A stretch of DNA of 64,000 bases from the NCBI RefSeq assembly GCF_001411555.2, contig NC_049909.1:8005485-8069484 (forward strand), given 5' to 3'. Position 1 is the first letter of the stretch. Each line of letters starts with the position of its first letter. The stretch comes from Juglans regia. Lineage: Eukaryota > Streptophyta > Magnoliopsida > Fagales > Juglandaceae. The translations under genes and the position numbers were made by a program. The notes beneath the pieces were generated by a model. The model saw nothing but the letters and a program-made list of their open reading frames with translations, had not been told where the DNA came from and made no database searches. Shown in pieces: positions 16,851 to 57,307 of the stretch.

Positions 16851-16943
16851 AAAAATTTCGTCCTCGAAATTAGCAAGGTCAAACATTAAACTAAGACAGG
16901 AACAAGATTCAACCGAGAGCATACTTAGAACATACCGTCAAAA

Positions 16944-21140: not shown

Positions 21141-21155
21141 TGCTCTGATACCACC
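21141..21155 (-). other. Primer-binding site, initiator tRNA-Met type
   Basis: On the minus strand GGTGGTATCAGAGCA follows the 5' LTR end at 21156. TGGTATCAGAGC is the standard complement of plant initiator tRNA-Met. It fixes the element's orientation as minus. Confidence 0.9.
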
Positions 21156-32920: not shown

Positions 32921-33566
32921 AGTGCCCCACCACTGTGATTTGCCACTGCCCCCAGCTGTGCCGCCGTAGACTTCCACCCAAGCCACCGCTGCACATAGTT
33001 TTGGTATGCATGGCCCCTGTCACGTAAAGTTTGATCCTAGGTTATTTTCTCAAAGAGTTATGAGTTTTCTTTCCCAAAATGCCCTTGATTGGGTATGTAC
33101 CGATCATGTTTTTATCATCTGCTATGCGTGGGATTTTATTTGCAGTATAAGAATTCATAGTTACGGATAGAAGTTAATTAACTAAATATATGAGTTTTAA
33201 AATATGATTAAGTTAATTACCAAAATGAATCTAAGTTGTAGTTGTTTAATTTTAAGATATTTTGGTATAAATATATTAGCTAGTATTAAATCTTATAATT
33301 TGATTTCAATAGTAAATAAGTTAGATTTTGTGTTTTAGTCGAACTAATTATTTGGGCATAGATGAATTGAGAAGTGTGACGATATTTGAGGATTACGTGA
33401 ATTTAGTTTTTGAGGAATTAAAATAGGTTATTTTAGAAGTTTAGGATTAAATATCGAAATATGTGATTAATTGGAAATTAGCGAGAATTACGTGATTATT
33501 TTATAGATGACGATTAATTATTGTTCGACATCTTGAGGAAAATTCTGAAAAAGCTAAGAAATCCAG

Positions 33567-34520
33567 GTAAGCGAGGTTCTTATGCTAGACTTTGTATTAA
33601 AATAAAATGAGCTGAGGTTGACTTTTTGGAAAATATACATATTTGGTTATGAAAAGAAATTTGAACTACCTCAGTTATTTGTTCTGCATTATTCATGAGA
33701 TTCTGTTTAAGAATAAAGTATTTTCTGTCATGACTGGTGTAGACATGAGCTTATTTTTGACATTTTGTTTCTAAACTTTGAAAAAGAGAGCGAATATGAA
33801 ATTTTGTGTATAAGTTATGTTTTTGCGATTTGATTTTGTTCAGTACTTTGTGTTGATAACATGTGGCACTTGAAAAACCTTTGGCATGACTTTCTGATTC
33901 TGTTCTAATCCTGATTCTGATTCTGATTCTGATATGGTGATTCTAATTCTGTTTTGCTCTGATATGTGGCCCTATCGCGAGATATAATAGTGACATCTGG
34001 CCCTGTCACAGGATATAATAGTGACCTCTGGCCCTGTCACGGGATACAATAGTCACCTTTGGCCCTATCACAGGATATAATAGTGACATCTGGTCTTGTC
34101 ACAGGAGATAATAGTGACCTCTGGCCTGCCACGGGATATAATAGTGGTTTTCTGTTATGAGTGCAATCGCTTTGATAACATGGTGATTTATGTTCTGCTT
34201 GGCTTTCTGCAGGATGCACAACCCTACCACGGGGGTTAAACATGGTCTCTATTCTGATATGATATGATAAGATGAAGATGTTCAGTTATGTTGTGTCAAA
34301 GGAGTCTTTGAATATAAAAAGTTGGTTTCTGAATATGAAATGTTCGAAAAGTCTCTCTGATTTTCTGATAATATATATTTTTGAGATTTGCATATTAATA
34401 CTAAAATGTTTTATTTCTGCATTCTGAACTCTATGAAAATGCTCATGTTTACACACTAGTATATGTCCTCTGCTTACTGAGTTGTTGATAACTCACCCCT
34501 TATCTCCATATATTTTTCAG
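33567..34520 (+). other. Putative LTR intron
   Basis: TCCAG/GTAAGCG begins at 33567. The stem-loop TGAGTTGTTGATAACTCA lies at 34478-34495, followed by pyrimidine-rich sequence and ATTTTTCAG/ATG, ending at 34520. Confidence 0.45.
33966..34150 (+). repeat. 31-bp tandem repeat
   Basis: Six copies starting GGCCCTGTCACAGGATATAA at 33968, 33999, 34030, 34061, 34092 and 34123, exact period 31. They are related to the 61-bp array at 26583. Confidence 0.9.
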
Positions 34521-34751
34521 ATGACTTTGAATAGTCCAGCTATGGATCAGGATTATGGAGCATCAGTGAGATGATTATTTAAGCATAGTGGATTACTCAT
34601 AGAAGATTTTTGAGAAGTGGCGGATTTTATTAAGAGATTTTGTAGTATTCTGATGATTTTATATTTTGGAGTCTATAAATATATTGATGAATTGCGAGTT
34701 TTTAAGTTATAGGGAGTAACTCTTCGATCCCTGCAGGACCGGGGCGTTACA

Positions 34752-35128
34752 CTGCTACCCAGAATTGATGATTTATTTGATCTAAATGAATTCAACTGGT
34801 GTAGGGCTACCCGTGCGGTGCAAGCAATTTTTCAAAGATAGATCTAAGATAACGATACCAACAACTCAAAATCAAGAAGAAGATGCCTTGAACACGATAC
34901 AGAGATTAAGAAGAGTAGTTATACTTAGTAGCCCTACACCACACACTGCAGAGGGAAAAAATAAAAAGATAGAAAATAAAGACCCACATTAGCAGGTGTG
35001 TGATGTATGGCTACTGAGTAGAATAACTCGATTAAGAATCTCATGTCGTACCATTTGGACTGACGAGCTCACCAGTTGATTTTATGGACATGATGAATCG
35101 AACACTAAAAGACTTCCTACACAAATTT
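34752..35128 (+). pseudogene. pol: Chromovirus D reverse transcriptase, second part
   Basis: It reads LLPRIDDLFDL, then in a shifted frame FSKIDLR and YQQLKIKKK (the SKIDLRSGYHQL motif, damaged). About 100 bp of odd sequence follows. The final part reads VVPFGLTSSPVDFMDMMNRT, LKDFLHKF. The next words, VVVFIDD, lie beyond the insertion at 35129. Confidence 0.8.
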
Positions 35129-36010
35129 TGTAACACCCGGACCTAGAAGTTGTATGGTTGGACTATGGATTTTTTTTTTTTTTTTATTTGAGCTTGATTT
35201 TTAGGTTATTTTTATTTTTTGGGTTTTAGGTTATGGATCGAGTAGTGATTTTTTATTATGAGCTTTTGGCCCATCAGTTGCGGAACAAGGCCACACTCGT
35301 TTGATTAAACCTTAGAAAACCTATCAGTTTATGAGCTAGCAGTTTTCCTCACCCGCACGACTCTCTTCCCACCTGCATGCACGTCCCTCATGCACATCCC
35401 TCGTCCTTTTGGTTTTCATCTAGGGTTTTCCATTCAACTCTTTTTATACATGTACTTCTCTCCTGAAAATGAAGTAGCCGCAGCAACCCGCGCATAAATC
35501 CCTTTTCATTCACTACCTCTACACGTTCTCGGCTCAGTGCTCGTCAACTTTGCACCCATAAACCAGACCACCAAAAACCTCCACCGCAAAGCACCAACAC
35601 CAAAAGATAGCCCACTGTAGAAAACTCCTCCACCTTGGTCACGTAAACCCACCCCAAGTAGTGCATCACCCCCAACCACTTGCCAAGCCGTAACGCAACA
35701 CGATTTTATTTTTCGTGACGCCGCTGCTCTACCATACGAAGTCATAGTCAACAACTCCTCCTTGCAAATAGCGCACCACCCCCACAGCGTCGTCCCTGCA
35801 CCACCACCGTGAGTGCCCATCTGCTCAACCAAGCTATCATGCGCCACCATCCTCTTCATGAAGTCAGCCCATTGAGTCTCTGTTTTATCTCCCAAAAATA
35901 GAGCATCTTTGGAAGGCACCGTGAACCGCAGCCACCACCCCACCTTTGTTCATGGCCATGAATCAGAACCACCATAGCCACTGATCTGCACCCCTCTGCC
36001 TCAACCACCG

Positions 36011-36121
36011 CTCTCTCTCTCTCTCTCTCTCGGTAACACCTCCATGCACACGCCGTGTTTCACTTCGTCTATCATGACTTTGTCTCTCTCTCTCTCTCTC
36101 TCACTCGTCTCTCTCTCTCTC
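36011..36121. repeat. CT microsatellites in LTR
   Basis: Three CT runs (36011-36031, 36082-36102, 36108-36121) in a pyrimidine-rich stretch upstream of the putative intron. Confidence 0.92.
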
Positions 36122-36608
36122 AGTGACCTTCCGCCGCCCTCAACACCATCTTCCTCTCACCCAGCGCCACCGCTCGTTGCTCCTCTCGGTAAGTCCTAGC
36201 CCTACCACCCTTTCACTAGTTCGGTTTTGGTTTCCAAAATAGGAAGTAGTAACATTGTCCCATATAGTTGAACATAAATTTCTAATGAAAGTACATTTAT
36301 GCCCTTTGAGTTTTCATGCCAAAGTTTGAACTTTAATGTATTTTTGGTTGGACGTGAAATTGTCTCGAGCCTTAGTAGGATTGGAGAAATTAGGTGGGAA
36401 TCAATTATTTTTTTAGGGTGACAATATTTTAAGGGTTCTGAGGAAGGGTAGATATTGAGGAAAAGTATTAAATTTTATATCTCAGGTTTTAATTACAAAA
36501 TGTGTATTTGATTGGATATTTATGAAAATTGCGTTATTATGTTATAGGTGGCGATTAATTATTATTTGACATTTTTTAGGAAACTTTTGAAAAAACTAAG
36601 AAGTCCAG

Positions 36609-37438
36609 GTAAGTGGGGTTCCTATGCTAGATTTGCATAAAAAGAAATGAACTCAGGTTGGTTTGTAAAAATGTGCATGTTGTTTCAAAAAGAAAAGGTG
36701 AAAAACAACCTCTTTATATGTTTTGCATTCACTCATGAGATATGTATAAAAGAGAAAAGAAATTTTTTTGACATGAATAGCGTAGACATGAGCAATATTC
36801 GACATGTTTCTAAAAAATGTAAAAAAGCGAATATGATATCATTGAGATTTTTATACATGTGATATGAAATGATTTAGATCTATTTTTGATCAAATGGAAA
36901 TGATATGAATACTTATCTGTTTTGATTCTGATTTTGAATATGGTTATGATATGATGATACTGGTTCACGTGATATGGTTGGTACCAACATGATATGATAT
37001 GATATGAGTGCACCCACTTTGGAAACAAAGTGGTCTTTTATGTGTCCTTTCCTATGTGCACACTCGGGGCTTCGAGATTAAAAAATGGGAAGTTTCACAA
37101 TATGATACTGCCTGGTTTAGCCACTGGGGATAGCACAACCTTACCAAGGGGGTTAAACATGGTATATGATATGATACGATATGATATGATAAGATGAAGA
37201 TGTTCAGTTATGTTATGCCAAAGTGTTCTTGAATATGAAAATGGTTTATGAATATCAAAAGATTGAAATCTCACTTTGATTTTTCTGATAATACGTTTTG
37301 AGATGTGCATATGAAAACAAAATGTTTTGTTTCTGCATACCAAACTTTCTAAAAAGGGGCACATGTTTACACACTAGTATAGGTTTTCTACTTACTGAGT
37401 TGTTGATAAATCACCCCTTATTTCCATATTTTTTTTAG
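36609..37438 (+). other. Putative LTR intron
   Basis: TCCAG/GTAAGTGGG begins at 36609. The stem-loop region CTTACTGAGTTGTTGATAAA lies at 37391-37410, followed by TTTTTTTTAG/ATG ending at 37438. Confidence 0.45.
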
Positions 37439-37671
37439 ATGATTTTGAATAGTCCAACTAAGGATCAGGATTATGGAGCATCGGTGAGATGATTATTTAA
37501 GCATAGTGGATTACTCATAGAAGATTTCTAAGAATTGGCGTTGTATTAAGAGATTTTGTAGTATTCTGATGACTTTATATTTTGGAGTCTGTAAATATAT
37601 TGATGAATTGTGAGTTTTAAGTTATAGGGAGTAACTCTTCGATCCCTGCGGGACGGGGGCGTTACAAATTT

Positions 37672-38094
37672 GTGGTGGTGTTCATAGACGACATTCTCAT
37701 TTATTACTTGGACACTGATCAACTCTGAGATTCTTTTACAAATTTTGCATGAAAATAAAATGTACGCAAAATTGAAGAAATCAAATTCTGGATGAAGAAA
37801 GTGGCTTTCCTGGGGAATGTTATTAGTGGAGAGGAATCTCGGTAGACCCAAGCAAGATAGAAGCAACAATTGATTGGGCATGACCCACCAACATCCCTGA
37901 ATTCGAAGCTTCCTCATACTTTCCAGATACTACTGAGGGTTCGTTTAAGGATTTTCAAAGATTGCAACTCCCCAAACTACATTAACAAAGAAGACTACAA
38001 GGTTCGTATGGACCAATGCATGCGTGGATAGCTTCTAGGAGCGAAAAAGGTGATTGGTTACAGCAATGGTCCTAACTCGTCCATAGGGAACTAG
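37672..38094 (+). pseudogene. pol: Chromovirus D reverse transcriptase, third part
   Basis: It begins with the catalytic segment VVVFIDDILIYY. Later, across frameshifts, come VAFLGNVISGEE (family HVISxEG) and sequence where the FRGFLGLAGYYRRF motif should be. Near the end comes the KTTKFVWT-like TTRFVWTNACV. The next words, LTAPVLTLPEGT, are cut at TAG by the insertion at 38095. Confidence 0.78.
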
Positions 38095-39149
38095 TGTAAT
38101 ACCCTGCTCCTTCCTTCTTACTTACGCTTCTTCTTCTGACGTATGTTTCGTCTTGATGACGTAAGCAAATCCCGAAGGCAGAGATTATGTGATCATCTGC
38201 CCTTCTCACTAGCGACTACGAGCCATGTTATGCGTATCGAACCATGATGGTGTGTTTCGAAAGATATCGTGTGACTTCTAGGGCACGCCCAGTGTTTTAA
38301 ATATGCTGGAAATATTTATAAGGAGTATTTCCATTGTAATTGAATTAAGATTAATCTTAAATACGACAATCATAATATTCTTGAAGAGCTCCAAAAATAT
38401 TATAATTGCCGGAAATCATTTTTATATTATTATTAAAATGATTTCAATTATTTAAGATATTATGAGATTTAAATTATGTTGAAAGCTTTTATTAATTAAA
38501 TGGTTTTATTCCTTTTAATATGTTAAGTGAGACTTCATCATTTTATTAATGATGAAGAATATTATTTTATAAACTAAAGTTAGTTTAAAATAATATTCTA
38601 CCTTAATTCCTCTAAGTGCTTTTAATTAACTTAATGTTTTATGCGTTTTCAAATCAGTGTTTTAATCTCTCGTCGTTAGATCGTTGTGTAGATCCCCAAA
38701 CGAAGGGACTGGGTTAAATACCCAGACCCCCTCTCTTTCCCCTTCATTTTTGTGACGCCCCCAAATTCCGCTTGGGATCGGACGGACATTTGAAGCGTCG
38801 AGACATGCAACACAAGGTTACCTGCCCCCGTTCATGACATATAAGATGCAATATTCCTAACATGCATCTAGCATTATGCAATATTCGCAGCGGATAATTT
38901 GTTTCTTCAGCAATACTATGCACAAAACTGAAATATCCCAAATACTTAAAACATACTTCATACATAATGACGTACTAAGCAACTGAGATCATAACAGTAG
39001 TCCAAGATGGTTGTGATCAAAAGAGTGTTGGAGATTGAACTCCACAAATACAAGTAGTAATATGAGATAACTGCTGTACTACCATCTACGTCACACCATC
39101 GCTTAGTCGACCATTTCCAGTTGGTCGATTCTCAATTCTCCTTCAGATC

Positions 39150-40592
39150 CTGTAATAAGATCTACCATTCGGGGGAAATGGTAGTTGGGACTACTACAGT
39201 GAGATTTGATTACAAATCTCAGCAAGTTAACAGGAAACTTCTACACAGGTTAATGATACATGCATGGCAGTAAAAGCATAAATGCATAATCAAATCATAA
39301 GTAATCATAGCATAACTTGACATACAACATAACATAACTGGCATAACTTAAATTGAAACTGAAGCTTAGCATGAACGTGACTTGAAACATAACATGGACT
39401 TGAAACATAGCATAAACGTGAACTTGAAACATAACATGGACTTGAAACATAACATGAATGTGAACATTTATAATTTGAACTTGAACTTGAACATAACTTG
39501 AACCTGAGCATGACATAACATAAATGTGAACTTGGAACATAACGTGAACGTGAACATAACATAACATGAACTTGAAACATATTCTTGCCTCATGGGATTA
39601 CCATGATTGCGTGAACGTAAACTTGAACATAACATAACGTGAAACATGACTTGAACTTGGAATCTTATTCAATAGACTTAATCATTAAAGTGACCATATG
39701 GGTGCTACACAGGTCCCCTTGAGCCGTGTGTCCCTGCCAATTACCTCATCACATCACAGGTTTCTATACCAGCTGTGAGTGCGTTAATACGTACTCCACA
39801 GTTGTTGTGGCCCCACGTATTCTACGTGTCACAATTGCTGTATCTCACGTAGTATGCTCCACAGTTGTTGTGGCCCCATGACTTATCTGTTTGTGCCACA
39901 CTTGTTGTGGACACACGTAACATAATGTGTGGCACCATCGGCGTTAGTGCCTGGCGCGCTCCGGTGACCAGCTAATTAGGCCCCATTCGCAACCTGTTGA
40001 CTGTACTTCGTCAACCTAGGAAATTTCACACCTATTTAGACACTCCAGCGTGAACAAAGGAGTTCCACTAGGATATTACCCCATCCTAGCGCTTAGGGTC
40101 GTGATTAACATGAATAACTTAACTGGCATATATGACATTTCGTAACGTGACGTAACATGAACGTGGCATAAAAGACAGAAGTCCTGACGTAGCATAACGT
40201 GACATGAACTAAGACGACATACATGACATACTTCAAGACATAAATGTAACAGAGAACATTTCATAACATGCAACATTTCGTAACACGGCATACCATATAA
40301 CTGACAACATTTCTTAACATGGTGTAACATGTGATAATGAATATTACGTGACATGAAATACATGTAACGAATGGCTTACTTAACTTAACATGACATACTT
40401 GCAATATATAGCAATACGTGACAAAATATCTTGTGTAACAGATGAATAATTCATGACAGAATAAATTTTGTGTCACAGATAAATATGTAATGATTTGGCA
40501 TGGCACATATGATAACATGCATACATACAATTTAGTTCCCTTACTGATCACTCATACACATTAAACTGATAGTAAGTTAAAAGCTAACTTAC
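39150..40592 (-). other. Putative LTR intron in A
   Basis: On the minus strand CGAG/GTAAGTTAGC begins at 40592. A strong stem GAGATTTG/CAAATCTC lies at 39201-39220, and CTTATTACAG/GATC ends at 39150. The hairpin and low-complexity repeats lie inside it. Confidence 0.45.
39796..39915. repeat. Short hairpin repeats in A
   Basis: Units CTCCACAGTTGTTGTGGCCCC (two copies) and the related CCACACTTGTTGTGGACAC form 5-bp stems. CACGTATTCTACGTG lies between. B carries the same array with one extra unit. Confidence 0.75.
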
Positions 40593-43127
40593 CTCGATCT
40601 TCGCGCTTCGAGACAAAACTCAAGTGCGATCATGGGAAACTGAAAGTAGTGATTTCTAAAAATTAAAACTTAATCACTAACAATTAGGAATATGGAAAAA
40701 TATCAACTTAGAGTAAAATTACTAGTTTACCCTCTACATGTGGGAAAATGACCATTTTACCCCTAACTTAAGGATTTTACATCCTAACTCCAAAAATCAC
40801 CAAAATTTACATACCTTATGTAAATTTTGTCCTAAGCTCAAATATCAATTCAAAAAAAATTTAAAACTAAATACAACCATTAACACTCTATAGGGCTGAA
40901 ACTTACAAAGGCTATTTCCTTTGATTTTTTTTTTTTAATTCTTTCAAATCTCAAAACTCATGATTAAACCAAAATTTTTCTTCTACTATACTCATAACAT
41001 ATTCCTAAGAATAATCATGTTTTGAATCATGAACAAAAGTCATCAAAATCACTAAAACCATACTTGAACTTTTTGGTTTCTCTTCTAAGTTCAAAACAGA
41101 ATTTTGTTTCTAACTTGTTTTGATCAACCTCTTGATCCATGACTTATAAAGAAGTGATCTTCAAACCAAAACATCACATGGTTCAAAAAGGTGTCCTAAA
41201 ACAGATCCAAGCTTCAAACTCAAGATCACATGGGTAAACATCAACCAAAACATAAATTTAGCCAAGAACATCATCACTTTGGCCTAACCGAATATCTCCT
41301 TGCATAAAATTTCATATCTTCGAAACTAACATCAAATATCTTCAAAATAACATTCTAACATGTATATAAGAGGCTTAGGATCTTCCAATAAAAATATCAA
41401 AGCCATTGGAATAAGATTAAACCATAAAAGATTTAAACTTTCTCAAAACAGAAACTGTTTTTCCTCTTCCAGTTTCTAAGTTTCTAGACCTAAGAAAATA
41501 TTTCACCAAAACTTTTAATCATGCAACAAATCCTCAACCAATAATCATATACACATGTTAACAGTACTCCATAAAAATTTCGGACCAAGATCTATTCATT
41601 AGCTTGATCAAAAACTCCAAAATATAACACACTCTCCAGTTTATCGCCCAGAATGACCTTTCTGGGGTCTAAACAACTTTTGACTTATCAAATGATCTCC
41701 AAATGGAACAAATAAGGTATCCATGTAAACTAGACTCCAAAAGAAAGAACTTTAATGAATGAAGCTTTGCGAGAAAACACTTACAAAATCTTCGAAACAG
41801 GCGTTCAAAAGAGGTACGAAAAACTGTCCGAGAGTGCCTTTTGTGTTTTATGAAGGAAAAGTATAAAGGAGAGCTGCTTTTCGTGGGAAGTGGACTGGAG
41901 AGCTTCTTACACAAGCTATGTAAAGTGATAGAACTGAAGGAATGGTTGAGTGTTGGCCTTTTCTTCTCATAAAAATCAGACCAAGATCTTTTCTCAAGGT
42001 GGAGTGTGAGAGTGAAAGAGTGAGGTGGCCCTTTAGCTTTGTATTTCAAGAACCTTCTAGGCCCTTCTTGTACAGATCTGGCCAGCCAAGTGGGGGTACA
42101 AAACTTAGCCATGAAGCAATCCTATGGTGACCAAATTCGTGGGCCTTAATGGGCCTAAACCGAATGGGCCTAAAATTTGGGGTTTAAAGAGGGTTTGGGT
42201 TGCTATCAAGCCCAAATCTAATATCACTTGGCCCAATCAATTTTTCAAGGTTAACAAGGTTGGATAATGATGTTCTAGCACAAATTTGAAGGATTAATAG
42301 CATGTGGAAGTGATTTAATCAAGTGATTAAACACAATGCTATAAATCGGATTAGAAAATGTTTAGAGGCCAACTTTAGGGTTTTGGCGAAACCGTTTAGG
42401 GTTCCGATTTCAACCATGCTTTTGGGCTTTCGATTGGATTCCCACCATTTAGGGTTTCACTAGGATTGAAAACCTCTTTGCTCTGGCACAATATGGTTGA
42501 TCAGATGAAACAAAGTTTTGCTTAACTAACATGATTTCACAGCTTGATTCCTTCAAATCCATCAAACATTCCTCATAGTGCCAAGTGTCTAATATTATTC
42601 ACTAAGTGTGGCTAAGATCTTGCCAAATGTCCAAATAAAACTTCTCTAATCTAATTTGGACATTCCACACTGTAATTTTGAAACACTGCAATCAGTGTGC
42701 TTACCGAGGTTACTATTCACTCCGAAAAAGTGAATCTTAAACTTCCCACTAAAAATTCCTAAATATTCATATTAACTTACAGTGAAAATATTATACCGAA
42801 ATCCAATCTCGAAGTGCCCATAAAAATAATTTCACAATTTCCAACAAACGTTTCGTCCGGAATTATGAAAATAGGATATTGCGCCATAAAATTCTAAATA
42901 ATCCACTGAGTCTAATGGCGTAGACTATAATGCATTCTGACACTTCTAATCACCTCAAATAAATAAAACTCATATTTCTAGCAGCATAGTGAGTGATAAT
43001 ACTGACTATGTTGATAGACTAAAACCTATGCAATTGGTCGATTCGTAAGAACTTATGGAGTTTTCACGAGATTTCTAAAGACAATAGAAATTCCACCAAT
43101 GAATTTCTAGCGGGCTGTTACAATTTT

Positions 43128-43344
43128 TCCCCATAGCCCTCTCTCTCCTCCCTCTCCCCAGCGTACAACGTATGCGGCTTCTCTCCACGCCGAACGGTTC
43201 CATCACATAGCCCGGCGCCGCCGTGCGTCGCCAGTCCTCACTGCCGGCACCACCAGGTCCACCTCATGCCGGCAAGCCTCCCAAGCCCAACCCCTCTCCC
43301 TCACGCTCCCTCTTCCTCTCCGCTAAAAGTGCAAAGCCTGAATG
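43128..43344 (+). other. Sequence of C between A and B
   Basis: A short CC- and CT-rich piece of LTR C, containing GCCCTCTCTCTCCTCCC. It is bounded by the duplications of A (ATTTT) and B (GAATG) and continues the leader-like part of C. Confidence 0.75.
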
Positions 43345-46300
43345 TGTGACGCCCCCAAATTCCGCTTGGGATCGGACGGACATTTGAAGTGTCGAGACAT
43401 GCAACACAAGGTTACCTGCCCCCGTTCATGACATATAAGATGCAATTTTCCTAACATGCATCTAGCATTATGCAATATTTGCAGCGGATAATTTTTTTTT
43501 CTTTAGCAATACTATGCACCAAACTAAAATATCACAAATACTTAAAACATACTCCATACTTAACGACATACTAAACAACTAAGATCACAAGAATAGTCCA
43601 TAAGGTTGTGATCAAAAGAGTGCTGGAGACTGAACTCCACCAATACAAGTAGTAATCTGAGGTAACTATTGAAATTCCATCTACGTCGCACCGTCGCTTA
43701 GTCGGCCGTTTCCAGTTGGTCGATTCCCGGTTCTCCTTCAGATCCTATAACAAAATCTACCAGTCGGGGAGAATGGTAGTTGGGACTACCATAGTGAGAT
43801 TTGATTACAAATCTCAGCAAGTTAACGGAAAGCTTCCACACAAGTTAATGATGCATGCATGGCAGTAAAAGCATGAATGCAAAATCAAATTATAAGTAAT
43901 CATAGCATAACTTGACATACAACATAACATAACTGGCATAACTTAAACTGAAACTGAAGCTTAACATGAACATGACTTGAAACATAGCATGAACGTGAAC
44001 TTGAAATATAACATGGACTTAAAACATAACATGAATGTGAACATGCATAATTTGAACATGAACTTGAGCATGACATAACATAAATGTGAACTTGGAACAT
44101 AACGTAAATGTGAACATAACATAACATGAACTTGAAACATATTTTTGTCTCATGGGATTACCATGATTGCGTGAACGTAAACTTGAACGTAACATAACGT
44201 GAACTTGAAACATGACTTAAACGTGAAATACATGAACTTGAAATCTTATTCAATAGACTTAATCATTAAAGTGACCATATGGGTGCTACACAGGTCCCCT
44301 TGAGCCGTGTGTCCCTGCCGATTACCGCATCACATCACAGGTTTCTATACCAGCTGTGAGTGCGTTAATACGTACTCCACAGTTGTTGTGGCCCCACGTA
44401 TTCTACGTGTCACAATTGCTGTGTCTCACGTAGTGTATGCTCCACAGTTGTTGTGGCCCCATGCTCCACAGTTGTTGTGGCCCCATGACTTGTTTGTGCC
44501 ACACTTGCTGTGGACACACGTAACGTAATGTGTGGCACCATCGGCGTTAGTGCCTGGCGCGCTCCGGTGACCAGCTAATTAGGCCCCATTCGCAACCTGT
44601 TGACTGTACTTTGTCAACCCAGGGAATTTCACACCTATTTAGACACTCCAGCGTGAACAAAGGAGTTCCACTAGGATATTACCCCATCCTAGCGCTTAGG
44701 GTCGTGATTGACATGAATAACTTAACTGGCATACATGACATTTCGTAACATAACATGATCGTGACATAAAAGACAAAAGTCCTGACGTAGCATAACATGA
44801 CATGAACATAAGATGACAGACATGACATACTTCAAGACATAAATGTAACAGAATACATTTCATAACATGGCATACATGTAACATGCAACATTTCGTAACA
44901 TGGCATACCATATAACAGACAACATTTCATAACATGGTGTAACATGTGACAGTGAATCTTACATGACATGAGATACATGTAACAGATGGCATACTTAACT
45001 TAACATGACATGCTTGCAATGTATAGGAATACGTGACAGAATATCTTTTGTAACAGCTGAATAATTCATGACAGAATAAATTCTGTGTAACAGATAAATA
45101 TGTAATGACTTGGCATGGCACATATGATAACATGCATACATACATTTTAGTTCCCTTACTTATCACTCATACACATTAAACTGATAGTAAGTTAAAAGCT
45201 AACTTACCTCGGTCGTCGCGTTCTACTAGAATAAAGCGTGAAACACGAGGAACTGTAAAAGGTTATTCTAAAAGTTAGAAATTAATTACTAACAATTAGA
45301 AATGAGAAAAGAGACAACTTAGAGTAAAATTACCAATTTACCCTCTACATGTGGGCAAATGACCATTCTACCTCCTAACTTAAGGATTTGATATCCTAAT
45401 TCCAAAAAATTACCAAAATTTACATTCCTCATGTAAATTTTGTCCCAAACTCAAATCTCAACTCAGAAAAATTTAAAACCAATCACAACTATGAAAAACT
45501 CACTATGGCCGAAACCTACATAGGCCATTTGTCTTATTTTGGTTGCAATTCTTTCAAGTTCCAAAACTCATGAATAAACCAAAATCTTGTAACAAAGATC
45601 TTCCTATCCTAAGTTTAAAAACACCCTTAAAACTATCCATTAAGAAAAAGCTAATTATCAATACCAAACTTTTTGTAAAAAGACCCAAACTTTTTAACAA
45701 AAAGTAAACCTTAAATCACAAGTTTTGACCTTAATAAAAACATCTCCAAGAATTCCAAAAAATCAAATCTTACTTCTAACATATTCATAACATCATCCTA
45801 AGATCAAACATGCTTTAAAACATCAAACAAAACTCACCAAAAAACACAAAACAATACTTGGAGTCTTTGGTTTTAAACTTAGTCCAAAACAGAAACTGAT
45901 TTTCCCAACTAACTATGATCAATCTCTTGATCCAAGGCTTAAAGACATGTGATCTTCAAACTAACACATCACATGGTTTAAAAAAGTGTCCTAAAGAATA
46001 TCCAACCATCAAACTTAAAATCACACGGCTAAAATTTAATAAAACATGGATCTAACTCAAAAACATCAAAGTTTAGTTTAGGCCTAACCGAAATCCTCTT
46101 GCATAGAAAATCATATCTTTAAAAATAATACTAAATATCTTCGAAATAACATCCTAACATGTATATAAGAGGCTTAGGATCATCATATAAAAATATCAAA
46201 GCCTTTGGAATAAGATTAAACCACGAAATATTCAAACTTTCACCAAACAGAAACTGTTTTTCCACTTCCAGTTTTCAAGTTTCTAACTCTAAGCAAATCT

Positions 46301-47942
46301 ATCATCAAAAGCTTTATTCATGCAACAAAAACTCAATTAAAATTCATAAACACATGTTAACAACACTCCATAAAATGTTCGGACCAAGATAAGTCCATTA
46401 GCTTGGTCAAAACTTCCAAAACATAACATACTCTCCAGTTTCACGCCCAGAATGACCTTTACATGGTTAAAAATACTTTTTACCGACCAAATGAGAATGG
46501 AATGAGACTAATAATATATCCACGGAAACTAGACTCAAAGACGAACAACTTATGTGAAGGAATCATCGTGCGAAAATACTTACAAAGGGTCGTAAATGGC
46601 CACGCAAAAAGTCCCAAAAATCTGCCCGAGAGAGCTGTTTTGGGTTTCTCTCTAAGAACGGGAGAAATAAGTGATAAAATGGAGAGAAGTATGTCTTGCA
46701 CGATGTTAGACTTCTGGAGGGAGAAGTTATGGTCTTGAATGACCCTTGATTGGAGGTGGATATGTGACATAAAGTGGAGAATAGAGAGGGGCAGAGACTG
46801 CTTGCAGCAGCTGTGAAAGATGGAGGTTGATGGAGTGGATTTCTCCTCCACATCAAGGCACTATTGGGTGCAGCCAATGGCAGTGGATGGTCTGCCATGT
46901 GGGGGAGGAAACTTCTCCAAGAAGCTTTGCCAAGGTGGCCAATTTCGTGGGCCTTGGTGGGCCCCACCAAGTGGGCTTCAATTTGGGGTTTAAAGGGGGT
47001 TTGGTTAGGGTTTGAGATGCTATCAATCCCAAAATCAATTTTTCTTGGCCCAATCAAATTCCCAAGGTTTAAAAGGTTGAATAATGATGTCATAACAAGG
47101 ATTTGATTAATTAATAGCATGTGGAAGTGATTTAATCAAGTGATTAAACACAATGCTAGAAATCGGATTAAAAAGGGTTTGGAGGCCAACTTTAGGGTTT
47201 GGGAAAACCATTTAGGGTTTTGGTTTCAACCAAGCTTTTGGGGTTTCAATTGGATTCCAATAATTTAGGGTTTTGCTTGGGTTGAAGCCCTCTTTGGTCT
47301 GGCACAATTTGGTTGAACAGATGAAACACAACTTTGCTTAGGTGGCATGATCTCAGACCTTGATTCCTTCACAAATCTATCTAATGGTTCTTCTTTGTGT
47401 CAAGTGTCTAATACCATTCACTAAGTGTGGCTAAAATCTTGCCAAGTGTCCAAATAAAACTTCTCTAACCTAATTTGGACATTCCACATTGTGATTTTGA
47501 AAACACTGCAATGGGTGCGCTTATCGAGGTTACTATTCACTCCAAAAAAATACATAATAAACTTAGTACTAAAAATTTCTAAATATTCATATTAACTTAT
47601 AGTGAAAATCGTTTTAACGAAATTCAACCCTGAAGTGCCCCTAAAAATAATTTCACAATTTTCAACAGACGTTTCGTCCGGAATTATGAAAATAAGTTAT
47701 TGCGCCATAAAATCCTAAATAATCCTCTGAGTCTAATGGCGTAGACCATAATGCATTCTGACACTTCTAACTACCTCAAATAATTAAACTCAAATTACTA
47801 GCACCATAGTGAGTGATAACAATGACTATGTTGACAGACTAAAACCTATGCGATTGGTCGATTCGTAAAAACTTATGGGGTTTTCACGAGATTCCTAAAG
47901 TCAATAGAAATTCCACCTATGAATTTCTAGCGGGCTGTTACA
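43345..47942 (-). mobile_element. Solo LTR B, 4.60 kb
   Basis: TGTGACGCCCCC...GGGCTGTTACA with exact GAATG duplications (43340-43344 and 47943-47947). It is highly similar to A over its length but with insertions, such as one extra hairpin unit at 44448-44483 and extra sequence at 45600-45780. It inserted independently of A, 222 bp away and in the same orientation. Confidence 0.9.
43745..45207 (-). other. Putative LTR intron in B
   Basis: On the minus strand CGAG/GTAAGTTAGC begins at 45207. The stem GAGATTTG/CAAATCTC lies at 43796-43815, and TTGTTATAG/GATC ends at 43745. Confidence 0.45.
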
Positions 47943-47947
47943 GAATG

Positions 47948-48800
47948 GGCTCAAGGCCACTGCGCCGTCGTACGCCGCCCAATGGCTCCACCGCTCCCAC
48001 GGCGACCTCCCCTCCCACCGGCCATCATCCTCCACCGAAGCCAGCCCCTGTTAAGCAATCCTCCCTCTCCTTCCACTGCAAGTACCCGAAATGGGTCTCT
48101 AACCCATTTCCTCACCGTGCGCCGCCATACACAGCCACCGATGGCCACCCAGCACCACCATGGACCTCCCTCTTCCTCCCCCTTCCTCCTCCATGTGACC
48201 CGAGGCCTATAGCCTCTCTCCACCACACGGGTTTCCCCCTCATGCACACATGGGTTGCACACCGTGCACCGCCACTCACGGCTGGTAACCACCACCTCCA
48301 GCCTCCTCAGGCAGCCACCAAGCCAACCCAACCTCCCATGACTCCGATTTGCCACCCACGAAAGCACACTCTCTCTCACTCTCCCACGGCTTCTTCTCCA
48401 CTGCATGGCCAGATCTGCCACCCACGAAAGCACACTCTCTCTCACTCTCCCACAGCTTCTTCTCCACTGTATGGCCAGATCCGCCACCTCGACGCCACCA
48501 TGAGATCCACCGCACCTCCCTTAGCCAAGCCCTAGGTCCAAACCACCACTTTATGTGGTGGGTAACCACTGCACATGATGGACAGTCACTGTGTGTGATT
48601 GACCGCCACTGCACACGGCTAGATCCGTCGTGTTATGCTCTTTGCCATCATCACAAGGCCACCACGAGCCATTTCAAGACCACACCTAGCTATCCAAATG
48701 CCTAAACAGTTAACGTACATGGGTTAGCCGCCACGTACGACTCTTCCGACATCATCGGCTGTAACGATCAACGAGCAACGCACGGGTTATCCCGCCGATG
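47948..48800 (+). other. CC- and CT-rich part of LTR C
   Basis: Pyrimidine-rich sequence with many CCACC words and a 64-bp direct duplication containing GCCACCCACGAAAGCACACTC (48352 and 48416). Overlapping frames are open on both strands because of composition. I see no conserved domain. Confidence 0.6.
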
Positions 48801-49084
48801 GTATAACTCTCTATCCCTCATATTTATGTTAGATATTGACTAGTTGACTAGGTTGTGGACTGTACTGTTAGTATTAATGGAGTTGTGGTATTGTGATGTG
48901 GTGCTATGTGAAGAAGTATTGGGCATTCTATATAGTGAAGTGTTGGTCTTGTCTGTATTGTATGGAGGTGTATTGTGTCGTGTAATGTAATGTGAAGTGT
49001 TGGGCGTAATTGAGAAGTGTGCTGTGAAATGTTGTGGACTGTGCCATGTAGTGCGGTTGGGGAATATGTGCTACATTGGTGACG

Positions 49085-49930
49085 TGGCAGATGGAATGGG
49101 AATAGTACATGCTGGGTGTACGTTGTGTGTGGCATAATGTGTGACAAGGAGAGTATATGTAAAATATACCCTCCTGACGTAGTGTGGAAAGGGAAGAGTA
49201 CACGCTGAGTGTACTCTGTGTAGGGTATGATATATGTGGGGAGTACATATGGAATGTACTCTATGTGATGGTGTGATGCACCATATGGCGTGTATGCCAT
49301 AGTGGTGATGTGGCATAACGTGCATGGAGTATATGCAGAGTGTATTCCATATAGTGGAGTGACGCATCATATGGCGGGTATGCCATAATGGTAATGTGGT
49401 GTAGTGCGTATGAAGAGAGTACACGATGAGTGTACTCCATATGGCAGGGTAATACACCATGTGGCGGATATGCCATAATGGTGATGTGGCGTGTTGTATA
49501 TGTGGGGAGTACATGTGAAAAGTACTCTATGTGGTGGAGTGATGCACCATATGGCAGGGATGCCATAATGGCGATGTGTCGTAGTGTGTATGAAGGGAGT
49601 ATACGAGGAGTGTACTCCATGTGATATAGTGATGTACCATATGGCGGGTATGCCATAGTGGTGATGGAGCGTATGTAAAGGGAGTATAAGTGGAACGTAC
49701 TCCATGTGATGGTGTGATGTACCATATGGCGTGTACGCCATAATAGTGATGTGGCGTGGTGTATGTGGAACAGGAAGAGTACACGCTGAGGGTACTCTGT
49801 GTGATGTGATAAGTGTGAAGGGAGTACACATGGAGTGTACTCCATGTGATCGAGTGATGTACCATATGGCAGGTATGCCATAGTAGTGATGTGGCTTATG
49901 TGAAGGGAGTATATGTGGAGTGTACTCCAC
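49085..49930. repeat. About 90-bp minisatellite with paired hairpins in LTR C
   Basis: About nine copies at 85-90 bp spacing (the ATGCCATA word at 49294, 49380, 49470, 49560, 49650, 49735 and 49875). Each unit has two inverted repeats: ATGGCGTGTATGCCAT and GGAGTACAC...GTGTACTCC. Because the period is mostly 90, a multiple of three, long minus-strand frames stay open. Confidence 0.88.
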
Positions 49931-51204
49931 GTGGCAGCGACACTTCGTGTGGCATGTCGTAGAAATAATGGTGGTTATGTGATTGATGGGCGTGGAACGT
50001 GATGGATAGTGTCATGAACTGTGAAACAGTGTCCCGAAGTAGCTATGGCATAGCCTATAGTCTGAGGTGACAAGTGTCACTGTGATGGACTTAGGGCTAG
50101 GAGTATGCGTGAAGTAGCAGAACAAGTGTAAGAGTGCGCAGCGGAAGCATGCTTGAGGAATGTCACGAAGTGACATGACTATTGACAGTCGTGCTTGTGA
50201 TGGGCGAAGTAGTGGAACAAGTGTAAGAGTACGTAGCGGAAGCATGACTAGACAACGTCACGAAGTGACGTGGTTATTGGCAGTCATGCTTATGATGGGT
50301 GAAGTGTTAGAGTGTAGGAATGGCGTAACGGGAACGTGACGAGATGTCACGATGTGATGGGAGTACGTGAGGAACCGTACTCGTGATGAGTTAGGAATTG
50401 ACGTAGTAGAATGTTGGGTAACGCGACAAGGTCATGGTGTAGCTTGGGTGTAATCTCGGGCTATGTGACGTGACATAAGGCGTAGTTGTGAATGGAGTCT
50501 TGTCGTGTTAAATGTTGGGATGAACTGTCAAAAGGGACGGGTAGCATGAAGAGTCATGCTAGCCGGGTTAAAAGAAGATTGGTATCGGAGTATGGCCCTT
50601 GTCCCTACGAGCAGGTGATCAACATGTTATACGTTGATCTCAGGTGATAAAGGGTAAGGTACGTGTGTAATCTGGTTGGACACATGTGTCGGACGGATTC
50701 ACCATATGTAATGGGTAATCTGTCATGTGGCTTAAGCCTCAGAGTTGGCTTAGAGCCGTGTGGCTTGTATGGATGGGAATGAGGATTTAGTGTAGGCTAA
50801 GATGCATGAAGGTAATGATGGATGCATCGTTAGGATTGAGATGTGTGATTTCGTCGGTTGGAATCATGCATCGAATGTAGTTGTAAGAAGAGTAAGATGA
50901 ATGTCTTAGTGTCTTAATCCTAAGGTGAATCATGGGTTCACTTTAGTGGATGAGCACTCAAGGCAAGACTTTGAGTTGGAAGATGTGGTGACCATAAGTG
51001 GTCCTCAAAGGGTTTAACATAGTAAAGGGCACGTAAGTGCACGGGATAGAAGAAGAGTGTTCTAAGTGATGTGTAGTTCTATTTATAGTTCAAGTTGCTT
51101 ATGCATTAGATAGAGAATGATGCTAAGGTATGTGTATGCATGTAGGTTGCCATCTGACAAACACATGAATGGACTACATGATATGCAAATAGCATGGAGT
51201 CCAG

Positions 51205-52500
51205 GTAAGTGTTACGTTCATACTCTTCTAGAGTTTTCCAAGATACAAGAAACGTTTTTCCTTTAAGATGCTCACGAAAAGAAACGAAAGACTCTTTAAG
51301 AAGGAAAATGCTAATTGTTCAAATGTATAAGTATGTACGGCCCCTCCTTGGCAGCCCCTGTTTACGCACCCAAAGTATTAATTGTACGCATGTGAATGGA
51401 TGACTATACGCTGTATCTATTGTATGTATTTTCTGAGAAAATCCATAAACTGATGAAAATGCATGAAAGACATGACAACGGATGCTTTTATGAATCCTAC
51501 GAACCGACACTCTCATGTGCGCCACGTGGTGATACTCGTGGATGCCATGATTGACGACGTTCAAGGTGACGCTTATGGAATGCCACGAAAGCTGACTTTT
51601 AAGCCCATGTACCCATGTATGTTCTTAAATGACGTATGCACAAACGAACTGTTAAAGAAAGGATAGGACTGAAATGGACTGAAAGACGGAAAGACCAATT
51701 TCGCGCTTACGCCCCAAACAATGTTTTCTCATGAAAAGAAATGTTTTCTCATGAAAAGAAAGGACTGTTAAATGAAAGAATGAACTGAATGAAAGCTCCA
51801 ACTCTTTCGACCTAACATGAACGAATGAATGAAAAGCAAGCAAGAAAGAAATGAAAGCATGAATGTATGAAGATACGTAACGGCCACATGAATGAATGAA
51901 AATGGTACCAATAAATGGGCAGATTGCAATGCCGGGTAAGTAGTACTGGAAGTACACCTAGTGCTGCCCCCTATGAAAGGGATTTCCAACCCGTGGCCAT
52001 GGGCGGAATCTGGGTCCAAAGGAAGACCGCTAACCCCAAACACAAGGGGTGTAACAGTGTGTACTGGCCTATGAAAGTGATAAGAATGAATGGATGTATG
52101 CATGTATGTATGAACGCATGAATGCACGAACCTTTAAGAAATGAAGGCACTGACGGGGGACACGTTTTAAAGAAAGGAAAGTCTTTTGAAAGAAAACCCC
52201 GTCTAGTGAAGTTTTCAAAAGAATGCACGTATGCACGTAAACACGCACGAACTCTTGAAGAAATGAAGGCACTGGCGGGAGAAACGTTTTACGAAAAGGA
52301 TGCCCATGTTTAAAAGAGAAAAATCCCGTCCAGTGACGTTTTCAAACGAATGCACGTAAGCACGTATGCATGCACGTAATAGTATGTACAAATGATGATT
52401 GCATGAATGAAAACCTATAGTGTTATATTTTAACCGTATGAAGTAATGCTTACGAGTCTTCGACTCATTTTAGTTTTTATGCATTTCCCTCCCCCCACAG
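51205..52500 (+). other. Putative LTR intron in C
   Basis: TCCAG/GTAAGTGTT begins at 51205. The stem-loop GAGTCTTCGACTC lies at 52454-52466. Then comes a pyrimidine tract CCCTCCCCCCACAG ending at 52500. Confidence 0.5.
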
Positions 52501-52763
52501 CTGCATGATCGGGACGGACACGGCTCATGCGTAAGAGCACGAAAGTCTAGGCACGAGTTTTAAACGTACGAGAGGCCTTTTTATTATAAGATTTATGTTT
52601 TCCGTTGTAAACCTCTTTTATTGTCAAAGCATATTTTAATCTATAAACGTTGAGTCTCGCACCCTAAGTATGCAAGTGAAAAGTTTTAAATAAGACGGTA
52701 ATTCCCGTCGTCCTTTTAGAAAACTATTTTGTAAAAAGTCCCACCATAAGGACGGGCGTTACA

Positions 52764-53130
52764 ACTAGAAGGTTCACTATCTACAGCAATGTGTCAAGGA
52801 ACGGGCTAGGATGCATACTGATGCAACACAGAAGGGTGATCACCTATGCCTCCAGACAACTAAAAGCCTATGAGCAAAATTACTCCACTTATGATCTCGA
52901 GTTGGCAGCAATGGTTTTTCTTCTAATGATTTGGAGGCACTACCTATATAGGGAAAGGTATGAAATTCACACCGATCATAAGAATCTCAAATACTTCTTT
53001 AAATAGAAGGAACTAAATATAAGGCAAAGGAGATGGCTAGAGCTAATTAAATATTACAATGGTAGTATCAATTACCATCCCATAAAATTTAGCTTCGTAG
53101 CAGATGCCCTAAGTCGCAAATCATCATGAT
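52764..53130 (+). pseudogene. pol: Chromovirus D RNase H
   Basis: It reads [20 protein letters not shown] and [20 protein letters not shown], then [32 protein letters not shown], a stop, LNIRQRRWLELIKYY and VADALSRKS. The first catalytic Asp of RNase H is normally the D of YSDAS; here it is N (YSNVS), which would abolish activity. The YELSTHDLELAA-like and TDHK motifs are present. It lies directly after the giant LTR C. Confidence 0.87.
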
Positions 53131-53784
53131 CATCACTAACGACAATACCATAGGAGATAATCAAGGACAAAGAGAGACTAAGCTAGGTGGTTATCTCAAA
53201 CCAAGATGCGAATTTAGCAAGCCTTATTGTCCAACCCACCCTTACTAATTGCATCAAATAGGCTCAAGGGAGGGATCCCCAGATTGTTCAAATAAAAACA
53301 TAACTTTGGGACAAGGATGGAAACGAAGATTTACAACTCTCAGAGAAGGGAATCTTGACATGCAGAGGTAGGATTTGCATCCCTAGCGATGAGGAAATCA
53401 AGAAGACCATCATGTATGAAACCCATCAATCCATTTATTATGTACATCTTGGAAGTACACAAATGTACCAAGACTTAAAACTAAGTCTCTGGTGGAATAA
53501 TATGAAGAGAAAGATTGTGCAATTCATAACTAGGTGCCCGACTTGCCAATTAAATCTTACCAATTAAATTTGGAAGTTCAATGGATAATCTGGCAGAGCC
53601 ATATATCAGGAAAATTGTTCGTCTACATGGGGTTTTGGTATCCATCGTATCTGACAGAGATCCTTATTTTGCCTAAAATTTTTGAGAAGCTTGTAGGAAG
53701 ATATGGGGACCAAACCAGATTTTAGTACAATATTTCATCCACAGACAGATGGTCATTCGGAACAAACCATCCAAATTGGAATTT
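53131..53784 (+). pseudogene. pol: Chromovirus D integrase, 5' part
   Basis: Zinc-finger region: MYETHQSIYYVHLGSTQMYQ and DLKLSLWWNNMKRKIVQFI, then CPTCQ, with the second His of the HHCC finger (HPGST) kept as HLGST. The first DDE block after the finger is deleted. It continues in shifted frames as IRKIVRLHGVLVSIVSDRDP, then FSTIFHPQTDGHSEQTIQ. It is cut by LTR E at 53785. The remainder, with the chromodomain and 3' LTR, is not in this window. Confidence 0.85.
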
Positions 53785-54449
53785 TGTGACCAACCGCTCA
53801 TTTTTCTCTCGATTGGTCACGAGTCTCTTCTTTGCGTTTTAAATCTTAAATTTGTGTTTTAAATTTAGCAAATTATTTCCAAAGCGAGCCGAGTATTTTA
53901 AAATCCTCCAAATATTTTAAAAGTCCAAAATTATTTTAAATTTGGTGTTTTTAGTATTATTGAACCAAGCCTAATTTTTAAAGTAAGCCTATTTATATTT
54001 TTAGAGCTCCGAAAATAATATAGTTTTAGAAAATCATTTTATATAAATGATTTTATTTCTTTAGGAATATTATGTAATATTCACCATTTTATTTTATGTT
54101 AAAAACTCTATTTATTTAGATGATTTTATTTCTTCCAAGAAATATTTATTAAACTCATCATTTTATTTTATGATGAAGAATATTATTAGCTGGTCAAGAA
54201 TAAAAAGTTTGGTTTTAATACTTAGTATATTTACCTTCCATTTATTTTCTAGTCTTTACTTTCTATTTAGCCTCTTTTTATTCCTCTTAGCTTAATCTCC
54301 ATTATTGGATCTAGGTTAGGAACCCTAGATGTAGGGCTAGGAGTAAAACCCTAATCCATTTTCTTTCGTCTTTTCTTTCTCGCTCCAAGCTACCGGCATA
54401 GCAACCCACAATGGCCTCGTAGCCTGCCGTTGTGCACCCCATCCCCCAC

Positions 54450-54450
<1 letters not shown>

Positions 54451-54488
<38 letters not shown>
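54451..54488. repeat. (CT)19 microsatellite
   Basis: A pure TC/CT run of 38 bp in the CC-rich part of E. Confidence 0.97.
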
Positions 54489-54491
<3 letters not shown>

Positions 54492-55099
54492 ACCCATGGC
54501 CTCAACCCTTGCTCTTCCAGCACTACCACCAACCACCTCCGCCACCAAGTCTCGCCACAACCACCCCCTCTCATCCCTCACTTAGATCTCTCTCTTATCT
54601 CTCTCAATTTCTCCCTCCAACACCCCCTCCGTATCTCACCAGCCACGAGTTGCCTCCTCACTCTACCGTCGCAAGCCTATAACGCCACCACTGTCTCCTC
54701 TCCATTGACGTGAACCTTCCACCGTGAGACCTAATCGAGGCCCCCCAACACTCCTCACAGCAGATCACCTCCCATTTTCCTCTCCTCCCTCGATCTACGT
54801 CCACACACACACACACACCTTTCTCTCTCCACCGTGCACTACCACACTGCAAGGCCAACAATCTCTCTGTCTTCACCCTACACGGCCAACCAGAACCTTG
54901 AAGCACCTACCCTCCACACATGGCTCACTACCCAGCCACCTCTCAGCCTCTGTTTTTAAGTTCACGATAGTGACCACCTTGGCAACACCACACATAGCCC
55001 CACCTTGCACGTATGTAGCCACCACCATGAGACCTTGTTGGATAGCAAGCATCACAACAATTCAACCACTCACTATGGTATAATTTCTATCTCTTTCCC

Positions 55100-55620
55100 T
55101 CAATAATTGATTATGCAAGTGAAGCTTAGTTGGTGTTGTGAATGGTGTTCTATTGTTGATAATTGTGAATGTGAAGTGATGGGACTAAATGTGAAGTTTG
55201 TGGTATGGATGTGATTGTGAAGTGGTGGGATTACTGTGAACGATGCTATATGGAGTAGTTTGTGATGTGGTTGTGTAGTTTGAAGTGATGACCATTATTG
55301 TGTAGTTTGTGTTGTGGTTGTGCATAGTGTAAAGTGACGGGGTTATTGTGCAGTTGTGATGTAGTGGTGATATTGCGGTATGTTATGAAGTGACGGGATT
55401 TAATGTGAAGTTGTGTTGTGTGAAGGATGGGGTGATTGTGTAGTTGTGAAGAGGTCAGATGTCATGTGAGGTGATGGGATCACTATGCAGTTTGATAGGT
55501 GGTTGTGAACAGTGTGAAGTGATTGGATGTTGTGTAGTTATGATATGGTTGTATGTCGTATGAAGTGCCGGGATAAGCTATGTAGTTGGACGTGTTGTGT
55601 GAAGTGTTATGTTGATTGGA
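55100..55620. repeat. Degenerate GT-rich repeats in E
   Basis: Loose GTGAAGTGATGGG and GTTGTGATGTGG words recur every 30-60 bp. The region is analogous to 48850-49080 in C. Confidence 0.6.
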
Positions 55621-56317
55621 ATTGTATTGGCTAGTAGGCCTCTTGTAAAAGCAAGTGGGCGTTTGGGGAGACTATATGTTGATCTTTGGTGATAAAGGGG
55701 TAGGGTGCATATATGAATTGGTTGGATGCATGTATCGGATAGATTTGCCATATGTAATGGGTAGTCTGTCTTAAGCAAGAGTACACAATGTTTAAGCCTC
55801 AGAGTTGGCTTAAAGTTGTGTATTATGCTTGGTTTGGATTATGATAAAGTGTTGGTTAAATTATATATGAATGGAGAAAGAGATATATGTATTGACTAGG
55901 ATTGAAATGTATAACTTGGTTGGTTCAAGTTATGCATCAGAATGGATGGTTTAGTAGGAAGAGTGTGATGAAGGTGATAGTATGTCCTAACCTTTAAAGT
56001 GAATCAATGAGGTTCACTTTAAAGAATAAAAACTTGAAGTAGAATGCTATGTGTTGGAAAGGTGACCACAAGTGAGTCCCAAGCTATTGACTTGAGAATT
56101 TAGAGAAGAGTGATAAAGGAAAGTATGAAGGATCGAATTGGATAATAGAGTATGTCTAAATGAAGGAAGTCTAAGTCAATGGTAGTTTTATGCATTTCTA
56201 AGTTTTAGATGCATACACACTTGAAAAGGAAATGATGTCAAGTTATGTATGTATATAAGTTGTCATCTGACACGCACATGAATGGACTGCATGAAATGAA
56301 TATAGCATGAAGTTCAG

Positions 56318-57307
56318 GTAAGTATTATATTCATACTCTTATGGAGTTTTCTAAATGATATGAAATGAAAATGAAAAGCTTTTATGAAAAATGTTCTTCT
56401 ATGCAATGAAAGAGAATGAAATGATGTTTTATGAAAGTATGCTAAGTATTAATGTTTAAAGGAATATGTATGTAAATGCCTTCTTTGGAAGCTCCTATTT
56501 ATGCACCCAAAGTAATAGTTGTATGCATGTGAATGGATGTTATATGTAGTAGTTATTGTATGTATTTTCTATGAAATGAAATGTTAAGGTTTATGCTTGA
56601 TGATAAGAAATGATGTTTAAATGATGCAATGAAAGTGTATTTAAATGATGATATGAAAGGAAGTTCAAATGATACTATGAAAGGAATGTTTAATGGATGC
56701 TATGAAATGATGTTTAAATGATGATGTTTATGCTTATACTTTTAAATGATATTTATAAAATGAAATGGACTGATAAATGAAAGAAATGAAAAGGAAATGG
56801 CTGAAATGAATGAATGAAAGGAAAAGAAAAGAAAAGAATGAATGTTTAATGTATGAAAATATGTAATGGTCATGACTGAATGAATGAATGATGGTACCAA
56901 TAGACGGGCAGGTGCTACCCCTAACTGAAAGGGATTCCCAACCTGTGGCCATGAGTGGAATCCGGGTCTAAAAGACTGGAAACCCCAACTCACGGGGCGT
57001 ACCAAAGTCTACTGGTCAGAGGAAAAGTGAAAAGAGTAAATGAATCAATGAATCAATGAATGATTTAGTTTCTTTATGAATGAATGTTCAAGGTGTGAGA
57101 AATTTTTTATGAGAAAGGAAAACCTTTTTAAAAAAAAACCCCCCACATTGTAATGTTTTCAAATGAAATGAAAGTTTTGTGTAAACTATTTAGAAGAATG
57201 ATGATTGCATGAATGAAAACCTATGTTATTACATTTTTACAGTATGAAGTAATGATTACTGAGTATTCAACTCATTTTATTTTTATGTATGTCCCTCCTC
57301 CTCTCAG
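56318..57307 (+). other. Putative LTR intron in E
   Basis: TTCAG/GTAAGTATT begins at 56318. The stem-loop TGAGTATTCAACTCA lies at 57260-57274. A pyrimidine tract CCCTCCTCCTCTCAG ends at 57307. Confidence 0.5.

Follow-up and report, generated by a model that had tools for sequence, protein, structure and literature searches.

Introns are generally absent from the long terminal repeat (LTR) retrotransposons of plants, Ogre and EVADE being the exceptions given in a 2025 review (PMC12786077), and because of this rule introns internal to the LTR are not a known default. BARE1 of barley is described as translating an RNA whose splicing is facultative and packaging RNA from a separate pool (PMC3735527). 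Of foamy virus it is reported that a donor in the LTR lies upstream of the poly(A) signal, that U1 binding blocks the signal at the 5' site and that RNA structure masks the donor at the 3' end (PMC3694450). The titles and abstracts of the open-licence papers found hold no description of introns lying wholly inside plant LTRs, most subscription papers being outside this search. With these systems we compare a 64,000-nucleotide stretch of Juglans regia (contig NC_049909.1, positions 8,005,485 to 8,069,484; G000:C9:8005485-8069484 within the 571-Mb assembly), hereafter the window, in which several LTR elements are apparent by self-comparison and for which an earlier note had described a recurrent intron-like module inside the LTRs. 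That observation is largely real and is partly confirmed, and its interpretation is partly supported. Judged from sequence, there is an even chance that several families of the Ty3/gypsy type have in their LTRs a leader which is spliced for translation, the unspliced RNA being kept as genome.

The module and its host LTRs

All 18 splice-like sites that had been named (nine donors and nine acceptors) are present at their positions, and the gene-like arrangement attributed to them is borne out. The families, here designated by letters, have a common order in B, C, G, H, D and E: a T-rich AG, a small exon of 54-63 nt, a strong donor, a long intron 2 (0.83-1.46 kb) closed by an AG, and a last exon of 228-439 nt which runs up to the LTR end. 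A GAG...CTC stem-loop lies shortly upstream of the acceptor in the same six. In B, C, D and E1 the distance from the T-rich AG down to the donor is 54-63 nt (in D2 the AG was placed by eye), and the AG ahead of exon 2 reads AAG in E2. In B and C2, and weakly in D, an extra donor stands about 360-1310 nt higher up; taken with the T-rich AG, it makes the small exon one that is flanked by two introns. The candidate features are as follows.

27294..27685, minus strand: B5 candidate intron 1, 392 nt, TTTTAG/GTAAGT ... TTTGTTTAG
27240..27293, minus strand: B5 candidate exon 2, 54 nt
26291..27239, minus strand: B5 candidate intron 2, 949 nt, GTAAAC...TTTTCAG, with a short mid-intron tandem repeat
26318..26333, minus strand: B5 GAG...CTC stem-loop ahead of the acceptor
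24050..24052, minus strand: donor CAG/GTAAGC of the partial LTR copy B3, rank 10 of 6949, counterpart of the donor at 27239
33507..33566, plus strand: C1 candidate exon 2, 60 nt
33567..34520, plus strand: C1 candidate intron 2, 954 nt
34521..34751, plus strand: C1 exon 3, reaching the LTR 3' end
36189..36547, plus strand: C2 candidate intron 1, about 360 nt, CTCTCG/GTAAGT ... TTATAG
36548..36608, plus strand: C2 candidate exon 2, 61 nt
36609..37438, plus strand: C2 candidate intron 2, 830 nt, about 93% identical to family G, unlike the exons
37439..37666, plus strand: C2 exon 3, 228 nt, reaching the LTR end
40593..40655, minus strand: D1 candidate exon 2, 63 nt
39150..40592, minus strand: D1 candidate intron 2, donor strong, acceptor unremarkable
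40572..40592, minus strand: D1 hairpin containing the donor, GTAAGTTA / TAACTTAC
39201..39220, minus strand: D1 stem-loop ahead of the acceptor, GAGATTTG / CAAATCTC
43745..45207, minus strand: D2 candidate intron 2, donor strong, acceptor unremarkable
about 51146-51204, plus strand: E1 candidate exon 2
51205..52500, plus strand: E1 candidate intron 2, 1296 nt, in a host LTR ending at 52763
52454..52466, plus strand: E1 stem-loop GAGTC / GACTC ahead of the acceptor
56318..57307, plus strand: E2 candidate intron 2, 990 nt, in a truncated LTR copy

The location in LTRs is fixed for part of these copies. TG...CA termini and a perfect 5-bp target-site duplication (TSD) delimit B5, C2, D1, D2 and element A, and the candidate introns of B5, C2, D1 and D2 lie wholly within the LTRs so bounded; the same fixed ends rule out that the acceptor of B falls outside its LTR. 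C1 and E1 are placed by their clear LTR 3' ends (34751 and 52763), their LTR starts not having been found, and E2 is truncated. A third, D-like copy near 60.7 kb is apparently without donor.

25891..28359, minus strand: solo LTR B5, 2469 bp, TSD GTTTA
35129..37666, plus strand: solo LTR C2, 2538 bp, TSD AATTT
38751..43122, minus strand: solo LTR D1, 4372 bp, TSD AAAAT
43345..47942, minus strand: solo LTR D2, 4598 bp, TSD CATTC
14610..23387, minus strand: element A, LTRs 14610-16832 and 21156-23387, TSD ATCAT

Element A has an integrase domain ahead of its 3' LTR and a primer binding site at 21153. At 49183-49937, inside LTR E1, lie tandem repeats whose unit is roughly 90 bp long. Elsewhere in the window there are an LTR pair at 1-612 and 5483-6094 (91.5% identical, with an Asp/Asn-tRNA-like primer site at 618) and, at 11662-13000, a tandem array with a repeat unit of about 29 bp. 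In an Rfam scan of the window nothing reached the gathering score.

Strength and conservation of the sites

Donors were ranked among the 6949 GTs of both strands of the window with an informal, rounded plant matrix, and acceptors among 7043 AGs with an ad hoc score of our own design, covering eight of the nine named acceptors (14938 of A3 excluded). Seven of the ten best donors are module donors (56318, 51205, 36609, 45207, 40592, 24050 and 33567), the remaining places being taken by 11280 and by the antisense sites 14977 and 21523 in the A LTRs. All of the seven except 24050 belong to the nine donors which had been named; the donor of B5 at 27239 ranks 44. As those donors had been chosen for being good, the rank within the LTR is the fairer test. 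By it no sense donor outscores that of the module in five of the eight LTRs scored (C1, C2, D1, D2 and E1, the starts of C1 and E1 being set by hand); in B5 it comes second, outranked by B5 donor 1, and in each of the A LTRs it is a weak second. The acceptors of C1, C2, E1, E2 and B5 are within the best 0.2-2.6%, and good donor and acceptor context are combined in these five copies; the D acceptors are poor, and A has neither.

Within family H the AG of exon 2 is kept in 23 of 23 copies and the acceptor CAG in 20 of the 21 which align there (two of the 23 rows are unaligned). Identity among the H copies is 0.93-0.97 at +340 to +620 in intron 2 and drops in exon 3 from 0.78 to 0.68; the value of 0.97 at the donor is biased, because the copies were selected by donor. 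Few of the stretches examined are as well conserved as the middle of intron 2. When the families B, C, G and H are compared, the mean identity is 0.82-0.93 from -80 to -20 of the acceptor and 0.66 over the final 20 nt of the intron; past the acceptor it starts at 0.61 and falls to about 0.42. Nine copies of family D all have the donor and eight of them the acceptor AG; the 8-bp hairpin which holds the donor is fully paired in eight of the nine, one of these eight keeping its pairing although both arms have changed. A structure scan of the G/H intron alignment gave one 120-column window with z -2.7 and weaker ones otherwise, and no family-wide structure is claimed.

Copies in the genome and exchange of intron 2

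With C2 as query at least 45 matches were found, the majority aligning over intron 2 only (40 of 5486 candidates scored), and with family D at least 46 (40 of 4170 candidates scored). The two LTRs of the family G element L031/L032 agree at 94% over 2.45 kb; the element has a primer site of the iMet type and, between the LTRs, gag, reverse transcriptase, RNase H and integrase domains in Ty3/gypsy order. Primer binding sites resembling TGGTATCAGAG or TTTTGTATCAGAG follow the 5' LTRs of the G copies L031, L011, L023 and L028, and others follow those of L055 and L059 in family H. Of the chromodomain which marks the integrase end of chromoviruses (Tekay/Del), Pfam gave no match in the pieces of G and of element A submitted to it, where it did detect SH3_Tf2-1. 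Exact TCCAGGTAAGTG sites number 628 in the assembly (control 34), and the first 20 listed all fall in LTR modules, 16 of E type and four of C type.

Three young LTR pairs of family H are 98.8, 99.6 and 98.9% identical and retain donor and acceptor in six of six LTRs; two of the pairs have TSDs (AGGCA and ATGAT), and the third was fetched from within the LTR. The presence of the module in both LTRs of these pairs implies that it is copied intact and survives recent retrotransposition. The young H elements L055-L060 are good candidates for expression work.

Gaps ignored, C2 is 93% identical to family G in both tested parts of intron 2, against 33% in exon 2 and 49% in exon 3, while its identity to C1 is 85% and 94% in the exons and 69-81% in the intron. 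Other combinations are found in L034 (C exons with a C-type intron), in L005 (a C-like exon 2 with G intron and G exon 3) and in L025/L030 (an exon 3 of their own beside an intron 90-94% G-like). On the 5' side identity switches at the donor; on the 3' side it switches in C2 upstream of the acceptor, the last 20 nt being of the C kind. These comparisons show a transfer of intron 2 among LTR families whose exons differ, for which recombination between families during reverse transcription would be the plain mechanism. A homologous intron 2 is common to B, C, G and H, and the families are not all independent; the module recurs in three LTR groups (B/C/G/H, D and E).

If spliced RNA were copied back, exon 2-exon 3 joins would be expected in the genome. 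A genome-wide search for exon 2 joined to exon 3, allowing up to 3 mismatches in 26 bases and so missing more decayed junctions, found none of G type, none of H type and none of E type. Unspliced G/H donor junctions, by comparison, number 751 (control 0); of the 100 listed among them, the letter at the R position is G-like in 15 and H-like in 85. One E-type LTR copy, L032:4719-7466 on the minus strand, is missing about 1.3 kb including the module donor, and the ends of this deletion, as judged by eye, are not splice sites.

Element A and family D also share a mid-LTR motif (22084-22000 on the minus strand and in the other A LTR; 40105-40040 on the minus strand in D), composed of CACGACCC, a stem and GTGGA.CTCCT. 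The stem reads CCGAGAT/ATCTCGG in A and CTAGGAT/ATCCTAG in D, both sides differing with pairing kept, and it is absent from the lowest-energy fold of D2. At 14977 and 21523 on the plus strand, in the stem-loop region of the A LTRs, lies a near-perfect antisense donor, CGCAG/GTAAGTAT, among the top five of the GTs ranked.

Readings of the module and comparison with known systems

As a leader, the module would consist of a CT-rich exon 1, an intron, the 54-63-nt exon 2, the intron 2 of 0.83-1.46 kb and a last exon leading into the primer binding site. RNA started upstream of exon 1 would most likely be spliced to a compact Gag-Pol mRNA, and an unspliced fraction would serve as genome. We infer the splicing itself, the transcription start and end sites and the function of the intron, as well as its placement in R/U5. 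Provided that intron 2 falls within the part of the RNA which is copied into both LTRs, only unspliced RNA could found a lasting copy, and intron 2 may then hold something the genomic RNA needs, for example a packaging or dimerisation signal. A leader intron of this kind would explain the position of the module, the quality of its sites, the recurring small exon and the lack of intron-lost LTRs. More doubtful is the extension by which intron 2 would be a genome-identity signal for packaging or dimerisation and splicing the switch between message and genome, with families capturing the intron as a cassette and so staying compatible with a shared packaging machinery.

A number of observations weigh against the leader intron. 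The scores used for the sites are informal ones, as described above, and the acceptors of D1 and D2, at 34-35% of all AGs, are ordinary. Donor 1 is weak in D and, in the H copies, good but at varying positions, and the T-richness of the introns is only modestly above that of the exons and not so in E1. In element A, which had been counted as carrying the module, the donors 15860 and 22404 rank 435 of 6949 and are unconvincing, and the acceptor of A5, at 41%, is unremarkable; its weak donors are the reason why A was rejected as a member. The expectation that GT and AG would mutate more slowly than their neighbours did not hold: in 26 decayed G copies they are kept no better, and among 16 aligned rows of family E (of 18) the acceptor AG is kept in 12 and lost in four. 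The G alignment comprised 26 of 36 extracted copies, after removal of the duplicates L003, L010 and L012, the truncated L026 and WB3, and the copies of other or mixed family L002, L005, WC1, WC2 and WB5. Decayed dead copies are a weak test of such conservation. The lack of intron-lost LTRs belongs here too, being predicted by packaging of unspliced RNA only and equally by a module that is never spliced; the retention of the intron proposed in the earlier note agrees with the zero joined junctions and with the intact young pairs, and its explanation by selective packaging is one of two that fit.

It is possible, if unlikely, that the module is never or hardly spliced and acts as a DNA-level control region (promoter, enhancer or terminator) or as a structured leader, its splice-like sites being copied family sequence. 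The missing spliced junctions of G, H and E, the unremarkable GT and AG of the decayed G copies and the AGs lost in E are in line with this, and further copies of a single family add no independent evidence; it is at odds with donors which are the best of their LTRs and with a 54-63-nt exon with its own AG common to three LTR groups of little sequence likeness, and with a conservation between families that drops at the acceptor. The donor might instead act by a U1-type block of early polyadenylation, splicing to the LTR acceptor being secondary. Foamy virus gives a precedent for such an LTR donor (PMC3694450), and the hairpin around the family D donor is the main support, but a conserved acceptor region would be needless and the hairpin was seen in D alone; this account is improbable.

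Two further proposals were rejected and have very little chance of being right. One takes exons 2 and 3 to be the final coding portion of a small protein encoded in the LTR. It would agree with a reading frame which in G, H and B, by eye, stays open through exon 2, over the junction and into the beginning of exon 3, and with an H exon 2 whose length is exactly 57 nt in all but one of 23 copies, those 22 being free of in-frame stops. Variation in the H exon 2 is however even across codon positions (12, 12 and 11), exon 1 has no consistent ATG frame, and in C1, L002 and L005 the frame across the junction, by eye, contains stops. Slimmer still is the chance that intron 2 is a self-mobile, introner-like intron inserting into LTRs. 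An intron about 93% identical beside exons at 33-49%, with the 5' switch at the donor, would suit it, yet there is no exact insertion at both splice sites, since the 3' switch of C2 lies upstream of the acceptor with the last 20 nt of C kind; nor was a duplication seen at the intron ends, in L034 C exons accompany a C-type intron, and recombination of element RNAs accounts for the exchange.

Should the leader-intron reading be true, the dual role of LTR-element RNA as message and genome, an open question, would become directly testable, and many solo LTRs would represent dispersed ready-made spliced first exons.

The leaders of plant genes have a CT-rich exon 1, a U-rich first intron and a short exon 2. 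The module is like them in layout, its leader being placed instead in the repeated terminus of a retrotransposon. The acceptors of foamy virus lie outside the LTR, whereas here donor and acceptor are both within it. A strong donor in the LTR is common to both, and the structural masking of the foamy virus donor may be compared with the family D hairpin (PMC3694450). BARE1 is likewise a plant LTR element with a spliced message and a packaged RNA, a division that is only proposed here; it differs in being of the Ty1/copia type, in having a 104-nt intron in the coding region after gag and not in the LTR, and in that its RNA pools differ also by promoter (PMC3735527). EVADE and Ogre are plant LTR elements too, with introns that are functional and with spliced RNAs; their introns make subgenomic coding RNAs, and the part of the review consulted mentions no LTR intron for them (PMC12786077). 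The position in or between gag and pol which is typical of BARE, EVADE and Ogre is thus not the one found in the window, where the module sits in the LTR.

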